From Apostichopus japonicus (Eukaryota; Echinodermata; Holothuroidea; Aspidochirotida; Stichopodidae): 64,000 bases of DNA. Where the stretch lies: positions 17,691,001-17,755,000 of the forward strand of contig NC_092568.1 in the NCBI RefSeq assembly GCF_037975245.1, given 5' to 3'. A program made the translations under genes and the position numbers. The first letter of the stretch is position 1. Every line of letters begins with the position of its first letter. Below, piece by piece: positions 3,901 through 62,436 of the stretch. The notes under the pieces were generated by a model, which saw only the letters and a list, made by a program, of their open reading frames with translations, was not told the DNA's origin and searched no databases.

Positions 3901-4150
3901 TAGTCCCTACATTTAATTTCAAGTTTTTTCAAGTTTTTATTTATTTATTTCTATCATTAAATCACAATGATGTACATTTGTAAAAAAAAAAATTAAAAAA
4001 ATACGGTTCTAGCATTGAAGCAGCGGGACCAGAAGTAAGATGACTTTTCGAGTCTGGTCTCTTACAAACTAATACGAGAAAATTAAATTTTATATAGAGA
4101 CAAATAAAACATCAAGAAAACACATAGAAAAAAGCCACACATAGGGAATT
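3901..4150 (-). repeat. Probable 3' end of a LINE-type retrotransposon (minus strand)
   Basis: Read on the minus strand, the segment ends in an A-rich tail with AAATAAATAAATAAA followed by repeats of ACTTGAAA (3920-3950). Short simple repeats of this kind are typical tails of CR1/L2-like LINEs. No reverse transcriptase ORF remains, so this is a 5'-truncated copy at best. Confidence 0.4.
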
Positions 4151-4295
4151 TTAATTAAATTTATTATTTCCAGTAAAACTATTTATAGAAGGAGTATAAA
4201 ACACAGCCAGCATAGTATACTGACTATACACAAATGTCCACCCATCATTATTAATACAGTAATAACCCTATATCATTCTAACCTCTTTTCCACAG

Positions 4296-6271
4296 TCGTT
4301 TCAGTCGTCATTCGTCAAACAAGGTCCTTATTCCGTTGAAGTATTGCTTCAAAGGACAGGATATTTGCCAGGAGAGAGGATTGGTGTACTTCTCAACTTA
4401 AGTCGTGGAAAGCAATCACCATTATCCATCAGTCCTTTCATTACAACGGAGCTTTTCGCGGTGAGTTTCCAATGCAAACACCGTTCCTTGAGCCTGTATA
4501 CATGCATGTCAAGTGACATGTTTGTTCTTTACATATACATATTTGGCAGAGGTGTTGAAGTTTGAAAATGGCGAGCGATCAAGACTATACGTAGACTTAT
4601 AAGAGATATATATAGTAGTATATGAAGTTTAAAGCCACAGTGTGCGTCTAATTTAATTAGAAGATGCTTTCTATGACAAAAGTCTCATTATAGCTAACTT
4701 CTTGTCTAGCTAAGAGACAGGTGGACTGGCCTATATATGCGTACTGAAGTTTATAACTAGTGGCTGCTGGCCCCTGAGTCGCCGATATCCTCTTGGTTGT
4801 AAAATGTGCTATAGCTTTCGACCGAGAAGCCAACATGCTTGTTTGAGGGCCCCAACCTCGCCAGTTGAATTACTGCAGAAGCCCAATTTATGTCCCACTC
4901 GCCACCCTTGCTCAGAGGCCGTCTATAATGTGTACAATATAATAGAACGACCACGATTGGTCAGTTGTATATTACGGCCATAATAGAACACTGGTCATAC
5001 TGCCCTCGTCACAACATCTTAGCTCACAATGGGACGATAAGGTCTCTTTAACTCAGGCGCTTAGCCAGCCTCCATTGTGTGAGGGGGGCAAAGCCAACTT
5101 TTTTGTCCCTATTGTAAGTGTCAGAGCATTTAAGCTTAAATAACGCTTACATCGGTATGATTTTTCATGCCACCATATAGGCTCCACCCTCAGTACGAAT
5201 TCAAATTTTCAATTGGGGTGCAAAAGGTTGGCTGACGTCCGTCTTGGTGAGGGATCTATAAGGGGAGGAGAGAGCCCTCCCATTTGAGAAATTTTTACTT
5301 CGTTAAGGAAGCTTATAGATGCAAAATGGTGCTATTCATTTTCGGCATTGGGCTTACATGTTGATAAGAATAGTCAGTTTTTTGCCGAGCAGCAATCGAA
5401 GTAATGTTACTTGCTAAATTAATGGTCTTTGAATTATACTGCAGAAGAAGGGAAAAAACACTTGGAGGGTGTCTTATATAGTTGGAAGCATAATATAAGC
5501 AACACTCGGTAATAAGTTTGAATTCCTAGAGTGAACTTTAGCAATATACCGAGTCAAGAATGTTGTATTACAATATGAACGACCCGGTATATGAAAAGAA
5601 AGTATATATTAAAGATATATTACAACCTGTCGCAAAAGTTTATTTCGTCAAATTTCCCTTCTTACCCATCATGATGGTCAAAATACACATGTAATGCTTG
5701 TTCCTTCGCAAAGATCTGAGTTTTTTAGAACTTAAACAACCTTCTACTCTATAGAGTATAACATGTAAGTTAAGCAATGAATCTCGCCAATGTGGAGAGA
5801 AAAAAAAACAGGTCTATGGCATCTTAGCAGTAAATATATTTGACTGCAGCAATCCTTCAGGGTGATATCTTTGATTCCAGAACTCGTAAATCCTTGCTTT
5901 TAGCAAAGATTTGGTTATTTTCATCCTCGACCGCAAGGACCCTTCTCGGATATCTAATACCACAGACTGCATAATCCTGTTAACGTTAATCCAAGTTCTG
6001 ACTGATTATCGAACAGTACTTTATCCTGGCTTCAAGTAAATTACAAACATAGAGAGTTTTTTAATATTGACTATACTGTGCCCGTCGCCAACTTCTTTTT
6101 CTTTTCTTTCCATTTTCGTGTATAAAGTCAATATTGATTCCAGCTAACATCCGTAGTTTAATTAAATTATACTGTGACCAGGTCACTTCGCCGATGTATA
6201 TATGTATATCATATAGCACGCCGATAAAATATCCCCTGGGGTTTCCATTTCTCAACGGTTCAAAGGGGCCG

Positions 6272-6426: not shown

Positions 6427-8677
6427 GCATATATATATATATATATATACATGTATATGTATTTATGTGTGTGTGTTAGATAGACAGGTAGATTGAAATG
6501 AAAGTATATACTATATACATAATATCTGAATATATATACATAAGCGACGCTTTTCTTAATACGGTGCGTCTGAAAACTGCTCAGTGCTAGGTGAACAAAC
6601 GACGTAACAAGCTATATGTAACTGGAATTGATAACAATCATTTCCAAGTTTTATTATCTGTATTGTAGATCTCTTAATTTCTTTAACTTTAGTTCTTCCT
6701 AAGGTTATATTTATAAGTATATGAAAAGAAATGTTATAAGATGATACTTGTTGTTGTTTGTTACACTGTTTTTGTTTCATTCATCTTTGTAGGCCGTTAG
6801 GTGTCAGGAACAGAAGGGTTTCTTGACATCTAAGGTTTGTTTGGAGAGGAAGAGGTTTATCTTTCCACGTACTGCTCGTCATCGGATGAGACAAGTCCTC
6901 CAGATCCCAGCAGATGCTATGCCCGCTACCAGCTTTAAAACAGCTTTCGAACATCCAGTTGAGCTCAACTATTATCTCAATGTAAGTTTATTAGTAACGC
7001 AGTAACACACACATTAACATTCGATGTGGCGTTTTGAGTAGGTTTTGTCATTTTGTCGATAATATGCGATCCCACTATATGCCATAATAATGTTACTTTG
7101 TCGATAATACGTGATACCAATATATGCCTTTGCGATAATATGCGATACTAATATATGCCATGATAATGTTAGTTTGTCGATAATATGCGATACTAATATA
7201 TCTCATAATGATGTTAGTTTGTTGATAATTTGCTATACTAATATATGCCGTTATAATGTTATAGTTTGTCGATAATACGTGATACTAATATATCCCACGA
7301 TAGAGTTAGTTTGTCGATAATATGCGATACTAATATCATATAACACTGTTGTTCTTTGATTGACTGTATAGGCATATATACTCAACTTCTGTGTATCAAA
7401 TATATATGAACATTTCGCAATTTTGGAGAAGTCATAATTTTTAAAATGATGCGACATTTTGGGATACGTGACATGTTGCAAAATATGGGCGATTCATTTG
7501 TAAAATAGAACAATAACTCATACTCTCTAGTGTAACATAGTGAAAATTGTATATAAAAAAATGATATGTTATACCTACGCCTATGAGGCTTATAAATATA
7601 CCAGATGTGATCAACTAACTTCAACCTCATGCTCAGAAATGCTTGGTATCTTACATTTGGTGCAACTTGAAATTCGCAGAGAAACGCAAAGAACTCCTTA
7701 AAAGGGATAGTCCATTTAATAAACATTTACATTTAATAACATTTAATAAACGAAGGAGGAACATATTCTAAGCTTCCTGGTAAAACTTGCTTTCACTTCC
7801 TATGTAACGTTTTCCAGATAACATTTGAAGTTGACACGTTTTGTACCCAAAGTGAACTTGAAGCAAACAGATGTGATGTCATATCGTATAGCATAATTAC
7901 AAATTTGGTTATATTTGTCATTAAATTTAAGTATACAATATTTTCTATACTTCAAAATTGGGATACATCTCTGTATGAGTATACTATCAGCATTGGTATA
8001 TTGTTAACTTCTTCAGATCGCCTTCGGTAAAGTTGGAACTCCATCCAATCAAATGTCAAAACAATCAAGTGAAAAATAACGGAAAACAAAACATTTTTTC
8101 TACCTGTGTGCAACTATGACATCACACCTGTTTGTTTCTAGTAGCTGACTTTATGGAAAAATCTCTGGCAATTATCAATATCTCGATAACGCTATGTATA
8201 GGAAATGCTTCCAAACTTCACAATGATGCAATTTTACAAGTCAAAAATACAATTTCCTCTGGACTATCATTTTATTCCAACGTATAATCACATTTTCGTC
8301 GTGAAAATGTTGATTATACAAACAATAATAAAAATTACTTTGTTTCATTGCATGGGATTCACAAACCTTGACAGATTAAATAACCTTCAGGAAAATTATT
8401 TCTCCAATATGTTTTATGGAACACGTGATGAAAGAAAAATGCGTCCTATATTGCACAATATGTTATGTATGTAACATATATCTGTAATGGAGAACAAAAG
8501 AACTCGCTGCACCATCTGAAGGTTAAATCTATCAACAAGTCTATATCCAATTGCTTTTAAAAGAAAATATTGCAATTTAAGAAAAAAATCAAAAATCAAA
8601 ATGTCGGTCATTTCATATAACATTGACCTCACTATAAACATGCATGGTTATATAATAGATATATATATAAATATATA

Positions 8678-12014: not shown

Positions 12015-12256
12015 TATTTCTTCTTTATGTTATATGATATATACATATTCCTTTTGGCCTAAGATCATGTGTAGTATCTGTTCCCTTTCGAGGGAAATGG
12101 TGATACACCCCGACGATGATCACACAGTCCCGATGCAAGGGGACTGGGGTTGAGAGCGGATCAGCGGCGTTCGGTAGTTTGGTTTTCGTGCCAAGGTTCT
12201 TTCCTGGGTGACTTTTATTAATAAGTATTTCTTCTTTATGTTATATGATATACATA
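12015..12256 (+). mobile_element. Retroposon with a U2 snRNA-derived head and ~31-bp TSD
   Basis: A 178-bp body (12048-12225) is flanked by long direct repeats at 12015-12047 and 12226-12256. Both read TATTTCTTCTTTATGTTATA onward and differ only by a 2-base TA indel. The body starts CCTTTTGGCCTAAGATCATG and continues TGTAGTATCTGTTC. That matches the start of U2 snRNA as I recall it, including the branch-point-pairing GTAGTA, with one inserted C and one substitution. After that the U2 match is lost. What follows has RNA-like hairpins: TTCCCT-TTCG-AGGGAA, and CAGTCCC with GGGGACTG. The long duplication indicates retroposition. The first bases of U2 are missing. Confidence 0.65.
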
Positions 12257-23458: not shown

Positions 23459-23785
23459 TGTCTCATTTGGTAGGGTTTAATTGTTCATTAGGTTCCATCT
23501 CACCTACAAAGTTACTCTTCTGTCAGTTATATTGTGATATGTCAAATACGCAGGTTGTCTCATTTAAAAAGTCTAGTATTCCAGAATTGTTCATTTAGGC
23601 CAGTCTCAACTATGAGATTACTGTTCTGTGAATACTATTGTGTGATATAATTAATATGCAGGTTATGTCTCACTTTGGCTAGAATTGTTCTTTATCTCAA
23701 ATATGAAGTTGATTGTTTGAGACAAAAAATGTGCAGATGTCTCATTTAGATAATCAAGTATTCCAGAATTGTTCATTTAGGCCAG
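23459..23785. repeat. Diverged tandem repeat, ~120-bp unit, about 3 copies
   Basis: Words TCTCATTTRG, TATTCCAGAATTGTTCATTT and AGGCC recur in the same order at about 23459, 23560 and 23745. The middle unit is shortened. Confidence 0.65.
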
Positions 23786-34700: not shown

Positions 34701-37700
34701 CAACTATTTGCTCACAGTGTTTAAATCAGTCTATCTCATCACAGATTTGTGTAGTTCAATAATTCACCAGAAAAGGAATGTCAAACCAATTTAGATAAGT
34801 CTGCTTCAGCCAGCAACCACACTGCCCACTCCCTCCAGGACCCACTCCCTCCAGTAAGCTGCCTACCCCCACCCACCCCCCCCCCCAAAAAAAAACATTA
34901 GACATGCATGAAAGCAATTTATTCTACCTCTTCCTCGTTGTCACTATCATCTGCATCTAAACCTGAATCCTTCTTCTCCTCTCGTTTCTTCTCCACTTTA
35001 TCTTCTGTCCTCTGTTCTACTTTATCTTGGGGTATGACATCTTCCGATAACTGAAGGAGGCAGAACAAACAAAGGGAATATCATAATCAGCAATTGACCA
35101 TGTTACAAATTGCTACATCGTTGGAATCATTTGGTAGTAAAACTTAATTTATGCATCAATGTTTCAGCAGAATTCAAAGAGAGGAGTAAAATTTTATTTA
35201 TAATTCCAATTTTTGTTTCCATTCAGTAAGACAAAAAAAAGATGGCTTCAGTAAATATTTCTTCTTATAGGCAGCTTTAAGAAAGTTGACAGAATAACGC
35301 AGGTGGTCTTAAGGAGACTTCACACATAGGAAAGCTTCATATAACAGTTTTGTGGTTATTATACATGAAAAACTACCTACAATCCTATTCCTTCTCATCT
35401 TTTCATCTCCATGGATACCAAAGACAATATAAGAGCTATTTGTTGAAGTTTGTAAACAAAAAACAGTTCTGTGGCCCTTATCTATTGTCTGGTTGAAACC
35501 AAAACACACATGCTGCTGACTTCAAATGATGTTGGAGCACATCTAAACAACTTCCTTCACTCTCAGTATATGAACATATTAAATGATGGAGCCCATCAAA
35601 ACAACTTCCTTCACTCTCAGTATATGAACATATTAAATGTCAGTGCCCATTAAAACAACTCCTTCACTCTCAGTATTGAACATATGAAATGTTGGAGCCC
35701 ATCAAAACTACTTCCTGCACTCTCAGTATACGAACATATTAAATGTTGGAGCCCATCAAAACAACTTCCTTTTTACTCTCAGTATATGAACATATTAAAT
35801 GTTGGAGCCCATCAAAACAACTTCCTTTTTACCCCAGCACATGAACATATTAAATGATGGAGCCCATCAAAACAACTTCCTTTATACTCTCAGTATATGT
35901 GAATATTAAATACTGCATTGGGTTACTTAGTTACTTTAGTAAAACGAGGGAAACATTGCAACAGATAACTACAGCGAGATGCCCTTAGTGATGCATTCCA
36001 TGGAATGACAGTGAACTTGTTCGTGTTACCTTAAACGCTTCAAATATTCTTGCAAACTGTCTCATGGTTGGGTCTGTGATGTCAAATTTTTCCGGGACGT
36101 ACTCGATCTCAACCTCGGGAGGAAGAGAAGAATCGTCATCCTCTATGGACTCCTCGGGATCATCCTCTGTCTTTATCTGATTCTGTTTCTCTTCTTGATC
36201 CCGTCTCTTAGCTTCTTTCCTTCGCTTCTTCTTCAATTTTCGGCGTTGATTCTTCGTCTGAATCATTGGGGGGAAAGATTCAGATACCTTTAGTAACTTG
36301 TGAGTAGTTACCGATGAAACAAAAACCCCATTATATGATGTAAGGAAGGACTTCAGATATGGCCGAAATATTAAAAAGCTGTCAAATTTGAAACTTAAAC
36401 GTCTTCTTGCATATGATAAACTTTTAACTCAATCCGAATGACCAGATTTGAAGACCAATTTGAGAGGGCAAGTATTCTAACATTACCAGTTTCTGTTTCT
36501 TGTCACTCTTCTCCTTCTTTGACTTGACTGTCTGTTTTTCCTCCTCCTCCTCTTCATCTTCGTCGTAGCCTTCGTCCTCATCAACCTCCGATACTATGCT
36601 CTCCATCTCCGTGGGAGCTGTATCCTCCTCTGTTGCCAGGGGCAACCCTGCAGCTGAACACAAAGGTTAAAGTTATGTCCATGAAACATAGCAAGGCTCA
36701 AAGTGCACAAACTAAGTGGATAAAAAACCTGTTGAACTCTTCAACAACCGAAACAGTGGACCCTGTCTACATGGTACAAGAAGAACTGTCACAGAGTGAC
36801 AGAATGACACTGTGGTTAGAGATATGTCCAACATTTGTACATCTTGACTTCAATTAATTTATTTCTCATTACGTACCTGAAAGGTTTAATACTACTTAAC
36901 GGCAATCACTTCGTTCAGTTCTTTAATAGCATAAATGGACAATTGCAGTTCAACATATTTCATGCATACTCAATAAAAAATATTGTGAAAGGACTTATGG
37001 ACTGTTGGTCGGTAGCTATCTCAAAGCTACTTTGATTTTGGCTAACACCTTGATTGCAATGAAACTAAGAAGCTACCCTTACATCTGTTACTTTTCATCA
37101 AGCAGGTATTACTGAGAAATTGTTCTACGACCACTGTACATTCCACTTCAATAAATTTCATCCGCCAACAGTTACGATAAATTTGCTGCCGCTGATCCGG
37201 AACAAACATTGAATCAATATTGAAGACAGATAATTCAATAATTTGTCCTGATTACTTCGCTTGTCATATTACATTTCCTCGAACGATATAGACCAGTTCC
37301 AACCACAAATTCCCAACCTGACGCAATCTCGTAACTACATGCACAGTTAGCTCTTCGGAGATAAATTCAAGTATCTTCTTCTCAAACTAAACTATCAGTA
37401 GAGCTCTAACAATAATCTGTCCCTCTTATATTGAAAAGAAACTTGATTTGTCAAACTTGTTAACTACACTGCTATTAGGGGATTAATACACAATTCGTTA
37501 GGGGATTAATACACAATTCATGAAGACCACTAGTATCAATCCACCAAACCCCTACCTTCTTCTTCTGTAACACCAACTTCCTGCACTCTTTCTTCCTTGT
37601 AAGCCAGCACCTTCTCCAGTGCAATGGGTAACTTGATTTCAAATGACGGTTGATCTACAAATGAAGAAAATTAAAAGTCCACTCAGCCCACCTTGCCATG

Positions 37701-51463: not shown

Positions 51464-52015
51464 AGAGGCATGTTACTACCAGTTTCAGCAAAATTGCGAC
51501 TGTTATGTCAGAACAGTGAGTAATTGTGGCTATAAACTTGTCCTGCGGTCCACAGCCTGGAACGGTTGTCTTTCGTGGAACCTTTGGGGGACCCTGCGAG
51601 ATGAGAAAGCCTGCAATGGAATGAATGTACAGCTGTGTTGTATGATCGAATCCTGTTCCTGGATCCTGAATATTAGTAAAGTTGTTGGATTGGGAAGAAA
51701 CTTTCCGAGTAGATCTACAACTGGCAATCACAAACTCTTTGATGAGATTGGAAGCAAAGGTTTAGTGATCTAATTACTTAAACATAATGTTAAAATGAAA
51801 TTCAGGTTTTCATTTTACATTCTGATGAAGCAGTCAACCGCATCTTTGTTATAGTACACTTTACAATATAATGGGAACATTTATAATTTCTCTTTTTGTC
51901 TTTGCTGTTCTTTTTGTCTCTTTTGATTCCGTGCCGAAAGCAGAAGGTTTCTAGCGATGATGATTGTGTGTGTGTGCGCGTGTATGTGATGCTGTTTGTG
52001 AACACAATACTTCTC
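51464..52015 (+). other. Probable MRPL11 3' UTR and flank
   Basis: The moderately GC-rich, non-repetitive sequence just after the stop suggests transcribed 3' UTR. I saw no canonical AATAAA up to about 51900, so the end is not placed. ORFs here overlap the UTR and are not supported. Confidence 0.35.
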
Positions 52016-52810
52016 ATACTTGGCATGTGGATGTCCCACATTGAGAAGAAGAACCGTTTTGTTCATGTTGGAGGTCAAAGGTCATTTGGGGTCACCAGAG
52101 GTCAAACTGAAACTTTGTGAACACGATATCTCAAGAAGGTAAAATTTGATGAATCTCATCCTTGGCAAGTTGATGCCCCATATTGAGTACAAGAAACCCA
52201 TTATTTTTGATAGAGGTCAAAGCTCATTTGTGTCACCAGAGTTCAAACTGTGAAAACCTTGTGAACACAATATCTCTCAAGAAGGCAAACTTTGATCCAT
52301 CTCATACTTGGCGTGTGGGTGCCCCATATTGCATTGAGTAAAAAGAAGCTACTTGTATTGGTGGAGGTCAAAGTTCACCAGAGCTAAATGGTGAAACCTT
52401 GTAAACATGATATATCAAGCAGGAAAGCATGTCTGGATCTGATATCTGGCATGTTATGCCCAAACTTAAATGCAAGAAGCTGTTTTATTAACATGACATC
52501 AATCCATTTGATCTATTATTAATAAAGGCCTGTTGTGAGTACAACAACCCTACTAAAAATGGCAGAGATTAGAGGTCAAACTGTGAAAGCCTTGTAAACA
52601 TGATCTCTCAGAGGTAAAACTTTGATGACTCATACTACAATTCATGGTTCACTAACATGTTAGTCAATGCTCATGGAATTTGAACTTTCTATACCTGAGT
52701 GGAGTTTGGATGAATGTCATACTTAGCATGTGTTTCCACCTTAGCACAAAATTCCTACTTTGTTTCGTAGCGGCCAAAGGTCATTTGAGGTCAAAGCAAA
52801 CGTGATCATT
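52016..52810. repeat. Tandem array, ~145-bp unit, about 5-6 diverged copies with AGGTCA half-sites
   Basis: Units share CATACTTGGCATGTGG, CCCCATATTGAGTA, GGAGGTCAAAGGTCA, CAGAGGTCAAACTG and CTTGTGAACACGATATCTCA, starting near 52016, 52159, 52301, 52440 (degraded) and 52550, with a partial unit near 52705. Several carry the nuclear-receptor half-site AGGTCA; the unit at 52072 has a perfect direct repeat spaced by one base (AGGTCA-A-AGGTCA). Confidence 0.8.
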
Positions 52811-61854: not shown

Positions 61855-62436
61855 CCTAAGACTTGAACAAGTCCAAATATGACATCATCAAGCCACGTGT
61901 GCTTCAATCTTTTCTAAAATCTTTCTATTTATTACAATGTTTTATTTTCTGTAATGGAGTTCAGATTTTGTAAAAATGTTGAATCGACACTATTGAAACT
62001 CTTAACATTGACCTAATGACGTCATTGGTTTCAGTGTCAAAACTGTTAACATTCTTAGCTTGAAAATCTGAAAAGAAGACCAAAGAAGAGAAAGTCATAA
62101 GTGTCAGATCCTAGTGGCACTATGACATCACAAAACTATTGAAACTTTTAACATTGACCTAATGACGTCATTGGTTTCAGTGTCAACACTGTTAACATTC
62201 TCAGCTTGAAAATCTGAAAAGAAGACCAAAGAAGAGAAAGTCATATGTGTATAGGGTCCTAGTGGCACTATGATATACCGTAACAAAACTATTGAAACTT
62301 TTAACATAGACCTTGTGACGTCATTGGTTTCACTGGTAACACTGTTAACATTCCTACCTTGAAAATCTGAAAAGAAGACCAAAGAAGAGAAAGTCGTAGG
62401 AGTGAGATCCTAGTGGCACTATGACATCACAAATTT
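61855..62436. repeat. Dispersed repeat with 3 tandem ~150-bp units, each with a CRE
   Basis: Units begin ATTGAAACT at 61992, 62138 and 62291. Each contains TGACGTCA (62017-62024, 62163-62170, 62316-62323), ACTGTTAACATT, TTGAAAATCTGAAAAGAAGA and CCTAGTGGCACTATGA. Leading sequence (61855-61991) matches the repeat near 47150. Confidence 0.92.

Follow-up and report, generated by a model that had tools for sequence, protein, structure and literature searches.

Copies of a short repetitive element of the sea cucumber Apostichopus japonicus lie inside the animal's U2 snRNA genes, where they follow the same U2 segment (nucleotides 1–45) that dispersed copies of the element carry as a 5′ head. We regard it as likely that the element is a non-autonomous retroposon, with a body of approximately 149 nt, which inserts into U2 genes such that the U2 sequence resumes at nucleotide 39. 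Because the resident copies follow U2 1–45 and have the nucleotide 39 junction, the head is best interpreted as host-gene sequence lying upstream of the element, presumably co-transcribed with the body and carried to off-target sites. SINEs with U2-derived heads are already known; in the literature searched, residence inside U2 genes appears to be the new aspect.

The window copy and its U2-derived head

The window, i.e. the whole stretch of 64,000 nucleotides analyzed (contig NC_092568.1, positions 17,691,001–17,755,000), contains one copy only of the element, with the following features.

12015–12047, no strand: target-site duplication, left copy (33 bp, extra TA)
12048–12227, plus strand: SINE-like copy, 5′-truncated (nucleotides 1–12 of the family majority sequence, 194 nt long, absent)
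12050–12083, plus strand: U2-derived head (U2 nucleotides 13–45, one extra C)
12081–12096, plus strand: UUCG-capped hairpin at the head/body boundary (predicted fold)
12084–12227, plus strand: body and tail, non-U2, ending AAGTA (family: TTAAAAAGTA)
12125–12146, plus strand: CAGTCCC/GGGACTG hairpin (z −4.4, 0/1000 shuffles)
12226–12256, no strand: target-site duplication, right copy (31 bp)

The sequence-only reading had the insert bounded by direct repeats of about 31 bp. Exact repeats of 27 bp are present in the window (12015–12041 and 12226–12252), and allowing one 2-base TA slip extends them to 33 and 31 bp with zero substitutions, in agreement with that description. The dinucleotide TT (12048–12049) lies between the left repeat and the head, and the copy ends in GTA, the last TA of which overlaps the right repeat. 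A second direct repeat in the window (23556–23785) sits within a run of local repeats.

Aligned with human U2, the head spans 34 columns with one extra C and one substitution and scores 57, whereas none of 5000 dinucleotide shuffles exceeds 41 and the best of 1428 other window segments reaches 35; the proposed near-perfect U2 head is therefore significant against shuffled sequence. The Rfam U2 model gives 19.3 bits (E 0.079) on the window copy, below its gathering score of 46, and no Rfam family reaches its gathering score anywhere in the window; raising the E limit to 10 adds just a CRISPR-repeat match (E 3.4) to this weak U2 match. The possibility that the entire 178 bp is a divergent U2 variant is not borne out, since 1701 of 2000 shuffles score as well as the body does against U2 from nucleotide 46 onward, and against the U2 repeat unit the body scores only 18. 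Reading the body as antisense U2 was likewise rejected as not significant (358/3000 and 198/3000 shuffles reach the observed value). A tRNA search found none, phage records gave only short matches with weak E values, three patterns had zero matches in viral contigs, and prokaryote contigs gave zero matches; 32 viral contigs contain a 16-mer resembling U2, and their scores against the body are low. The presence in the window of an SF3B2-like gene, a weakly supported call based on one open reading frame (E 0.00015), is regarded as coincidence, as had been supposed.

A dispersed family in the genome

A search of the genome (671,581,487 bases, 35 contigs) with the window copy returned at least 45 matches; of 2205 first-look candidates, 40 were scored. 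Many of the copies carry the body after the U2 part. Thirty loci, the best matches to the window copy and not a random sample, were cut out and aligned: head, body and tail are common to all of them, giving the 194-nt majority sequence and upholding the earlier reading as a SINE family. Since many copies have the same head and body, a one-off chimera is excluded; a single retrocopy made by template switching, which would suit the absence of a second copy from the window, is refuted by the genome search, with its 30 dispersed copies and their common subfamily changes, and we give it practically no weight.

Eight of the 30 copies align from nucleotide 1 (ATCGCTTCTCGG, the U2 start) and the others from nucleotides 2–13, and 29 end in GTA. 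Possible target-site duplications, scored by a mismatch-tolerant script without chance comparison, occur in 24 copies, with lengths of 6–16 bp in 23 and greater length in the window copy. Changes in the body group the copies, e.g. a 6-bp deletion found in five of the 30, including the window copy. Variants common to at least two copies occupy 3 of 990 head cells versus 54 of 4431 body cells; one head variant occurs in three copies, implying that some head variation is inherited. Among 19 spread 10-kb stretches sampled, one copy was found (L073), together with old pieces at two places (L080), from which the family might, as a rough guess, number thousands of copies. At one locus (L063, G000:C6:10845001-10855000, about 4025–5872), SINE units are arranged head-to-tail, several of them headless, with tail ends joined directly. 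The element is thus short, multicopy, dispersed and non-coding, with target-site duplications (33/31 bp in the window copy), as SINEs are; a simple consensus scan of the window copy revealed no Pol III A or B box better than those in shuffles, a respect in which it departs from a SINE.

Identity of the head with host U2

A genome search with the U2 model RF00004 gave at least 46 matches over the cut-off, with 46 of 40968 candidates scored; 42 are on contig 16, mostly at 645-bp spacing, and four on contig 15. Alignment with the species' own U2, as read in one array gene (L083, G000:C16:31155500-31156200), shows that the family majority head starts at U2 +1 and is identical to host U2 nucleotides 1–45 at 45 of 45 positions, i.e. 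it is a U2-derived head of the kind that defines SINEU. Nucleotide 30 of host U2 is T (GATCATGTG), adjoining the branch-site-recognition GTAGTA, and the majority head also has T; the human residue we take to be A. The T at this position in both host U2 and head is a second line of evidence for a host-derived head. Co-evolution of the body with an A-to-T change in the head was ruled out, as host U2 itself has T. Comparison of the 30 loci with the U2 upstream region gave no clear match (best score 34 of 200 possible, without shuffle comparison).

Copies resident in U2 genes

One start-to-start distance in the U2 array equals two units plus 153 bp, an excess near the body length, and it was this odd interval that led to the reading of L086 and to the first resident copy. 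The order there is U2 upstream region, U2 1–45, SINE body, and then U2 from nucleotide 39. Two of five further gap stretches (L089 and L090) have the same structure, with one changed base in the segment before the body in L089. In all three resident copies U2 39–45 is present on both sides of the body, and the element has thus inserted inside U2 genes. The last 141 nt of the three bodies are identical while their 5′ junctions differ; the differing junctions fit separate insertions, and array amplification could alternatively have been the source of the identical bodies.

The junction string CTTAAAAAGTA followed by U2 from nucleotide 39 occurs seven times in the genome, compared with zero for the reversed control. 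Six of the strings are in the U2-array region (C16:31,006,762-31,134,570) and one is on contig 20; three of the seven were read in context. Resumption of U2 at nucleotide 39 in several U2 genes (three read, seven strings) corresponds to the insertion site of Keno and Utopia. The single string outside the contig 16 array is at G000:C20:14906446-14906471.

Seven of the 30 dispersed copies are only one or two changes from the resident body, and the window copy, with 12 changes, is the furthest from it. None of the three resident copies that were read has CCCTTTCGAGGGG, the boundary sequence of dispersed copies, so that a direct source of the latter is not among them.

These observations bear on a SINEU-type origin, in which a single template jump from body RNA to U2 snRNA created the head, dispersed copies were the source of amplification, and those in U2 genes arose secondarily by insertion or conversion. 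Chimeras of LINEs with U1–U6 snRNAs (PMC13174262) and an R2-U12 template jump (PMC3414825) are reported, a jump would likewise end at U2 +1, and the head variant common to three copies suits amplification from dispersed copies. The end of the head, however, coincides exactly with the start of the U2-gene insertion, with U2 39–45 on both sides, a boundary that a single jump does not predict, and the head matches present host U2 at all 45 positions. We consider this origin unlikely relative to derivation of the head from the host gene.

A proposed cycle

For the host-gene derivation we infer transcription, a mobilizing partner LINE and the order of events as follows. The U2 promoter, which probably drives the resident element, would transcribe a chimeric RNA consisting of U2 1–45 and then the body. 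A U2-targeting LINE enzyme would recognize the 3′ tail of this RNA and carry out target-primed reverse transcription. At a U2 gene, reverse transcription would yield a new resident copy; at an imperfect off-target site, the cDNA would run through the U2 part to the RNA 5′ end, yielding a U2-headed copy. The window copy would be one such off-target product, and it presumably lacks its own promoter.

Entry of the body with duplication of U2 39–45 leaves the upstream U2 segment as exactly 1–45, which is the head. A chimeric transcript from the U2 promoter would account for the identity of the head with host U2, for copies that begin at U2 +1, for the lack of a conspicuous Pol III box, and for the absence from the 30 loci of any clear match to the U2 upstream region. 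The 3′ flank of the window copy from 12228, TTTCTTCTTT, agrees at 8 of 10 positions with U2 39–48 (TCTGTTCTTT), a likeness reached at 154 of 127,980 window positions. Over the 30 off-target flanks, one of which (L049) is a neighboring unit and not an independent target, the mean agreement is 3.9/10, with the window copy the best at 8; the control mean at 80 offsets is 2.78 (sd 0.27, maximum 3.3).

Other insertions with the same nucleotide 39 junction are present in the U2 array. Those in L084 and L091 are of one kind, about 5 kb by spacing, with L091 repeating the 3′ end of the L084 insert; the insert in L087 is of a second kind; and gap stretch L088 has no U2 junction. In L085, U2 1–30 precedes an insert end that is assigned to the opposite side of the L084 insert, of which the two ends were read. 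By size and junction these inserts are putative LINEs; a Pfam search of them gave nothing over the cut-off. Neither kind of 3′ end resembles the SINE over any extended stretch (scores 18–19), and neither points to a partner LINE. Nor does the SINE match one insert's 3′ end (403 nt), the approximately 330-nt 5′ stretch in L085 or the L087 end.

Predicted RNA folding

The hairpins noted from the sequence alone fared differently. The CAGTCCC/GGGGACTG stem is well supported (z −4.4, 0/1000 shuffles); the UUCG-capped stem is present in the predicted fold, but its stretch alone (12079–12115) is unremarkable (z −1.08, 139/1000 shuffles). A further stem of the SINE is CCCAGG-loop-CCTGGG. Over its full 178 nt, the window copy is not more stably folded than shuffles (z −0.74; other strand −0.54), nor is its body alone (z 0.53), while its 5′ part (12048–12160) gives z −3.16 (3/1000) and the family majority sequence z −3.69 (0/200). 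Against shuffles of the body that leave the head intact, majority nucleotides 1–130 give z −4.73 (0/2000), with 36 predicted head-body pairs, a number reached by 14 of 2000 shuffles; the GUAGUA segment is among these pairs. In a covariation analysis of 25 sequences, 92.9% of cells are paired versus 92.6% after shuffling, and both-side changes occur in 4 versus 2.1 pairs.

Such folding would suit a functional small RNA gene family, i.e. a U2-like snRNA with a new body, accompanied by retrocopies. We think this very improbable: the U2 genes are interrupted by the element and show a short duplication, as after an insertion, and the body of the element is unlike U2. Within the retroposon cycle, we put forward tentatively, and with slightly less than balanced confidence, that a headless SINE living in U2 genes obtains from the host, at each cycle, both a promoter and its first 45 nt, and that the body folds over the U2 segment, including GUAGUA, such that the chimera escapes use as U2 snRNA; snRNA-headed SINEs might more generally arise in this way.

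Relation to known elements

The usual explanation for a SINE head is a single capture of a small RNA. SINEU, reportedly described by Kojima in 2015, occurs in crocodilians and is associated with a Tx1 LINE and a Mariner target. SINEU is an accepted class of SINEs with U1- or U2-derived heads, and it resembles the sea cucumber element in that the 5′ part of the SINE is U2 snRNA. Compared by description only, the two differ in that the element here also resides in U2 genes, with the gene supplying the head.

According to PMC4640811, downstream U2 starts at nucleotide 39 after Utopia, Keno occupies the same site, and reptile Utopia produces 20-bp duplications; resumption of U2 at nucleotide 39 is thus common to these elements and the resident SINE. 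In contrast to the body of approximately 149 nt here, Keno and Utopia are autonomous and coding; no protein of either was identified in this analysis. R2 and the R2/R1 SIDEs occupy Drosophila rRNA genes, and the SIDEs offer a likeness as short non-autonomous elements in a multicopy RNA gene at the site of a target-specific LINE (PMC3414825). The same paper describes SIDEs as internal R2 deletions whose 5′ ribozyme cuts off the 28S part (PMC3414825), whereas no LINE similarity is present in the insert stretches read here and the dispersed copies retain the U2 part. In the literature searched, mostly titles and abstract openings, we found no description of a SINE resident in U2 genes.

The captured part is here visible in place: within a U2 gene, the element begins precisely at the point up to which the head extends. 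How snRNA-headed SINEs originate would thereby become testable as a cycle of gene-resident source, borrowed snRNA promoter and off-target copies, and SINEs would gain a counterpart to the SIDEs of rRNA genes. A question raised is how the animal tolerates chimeric U2 RNAs.

Other features of the window

A DNA-transposon-like insert, identified by eye at 484–2127, has the ends CAGGGACGTCGCTA and TAGCTACGTCCCTG (492–505 and 2106–2119) and CCTTTACC on both sides; we take it to be hAT-like. Tandem arrays are present at 35529–35911 (periods 54/106 bp), 61989–62433 (146 bp), 52012–52331 (142 bp) and 7052–7336 (31–92 bp), the first of which lies just below the SF3B2-like open reading frame.
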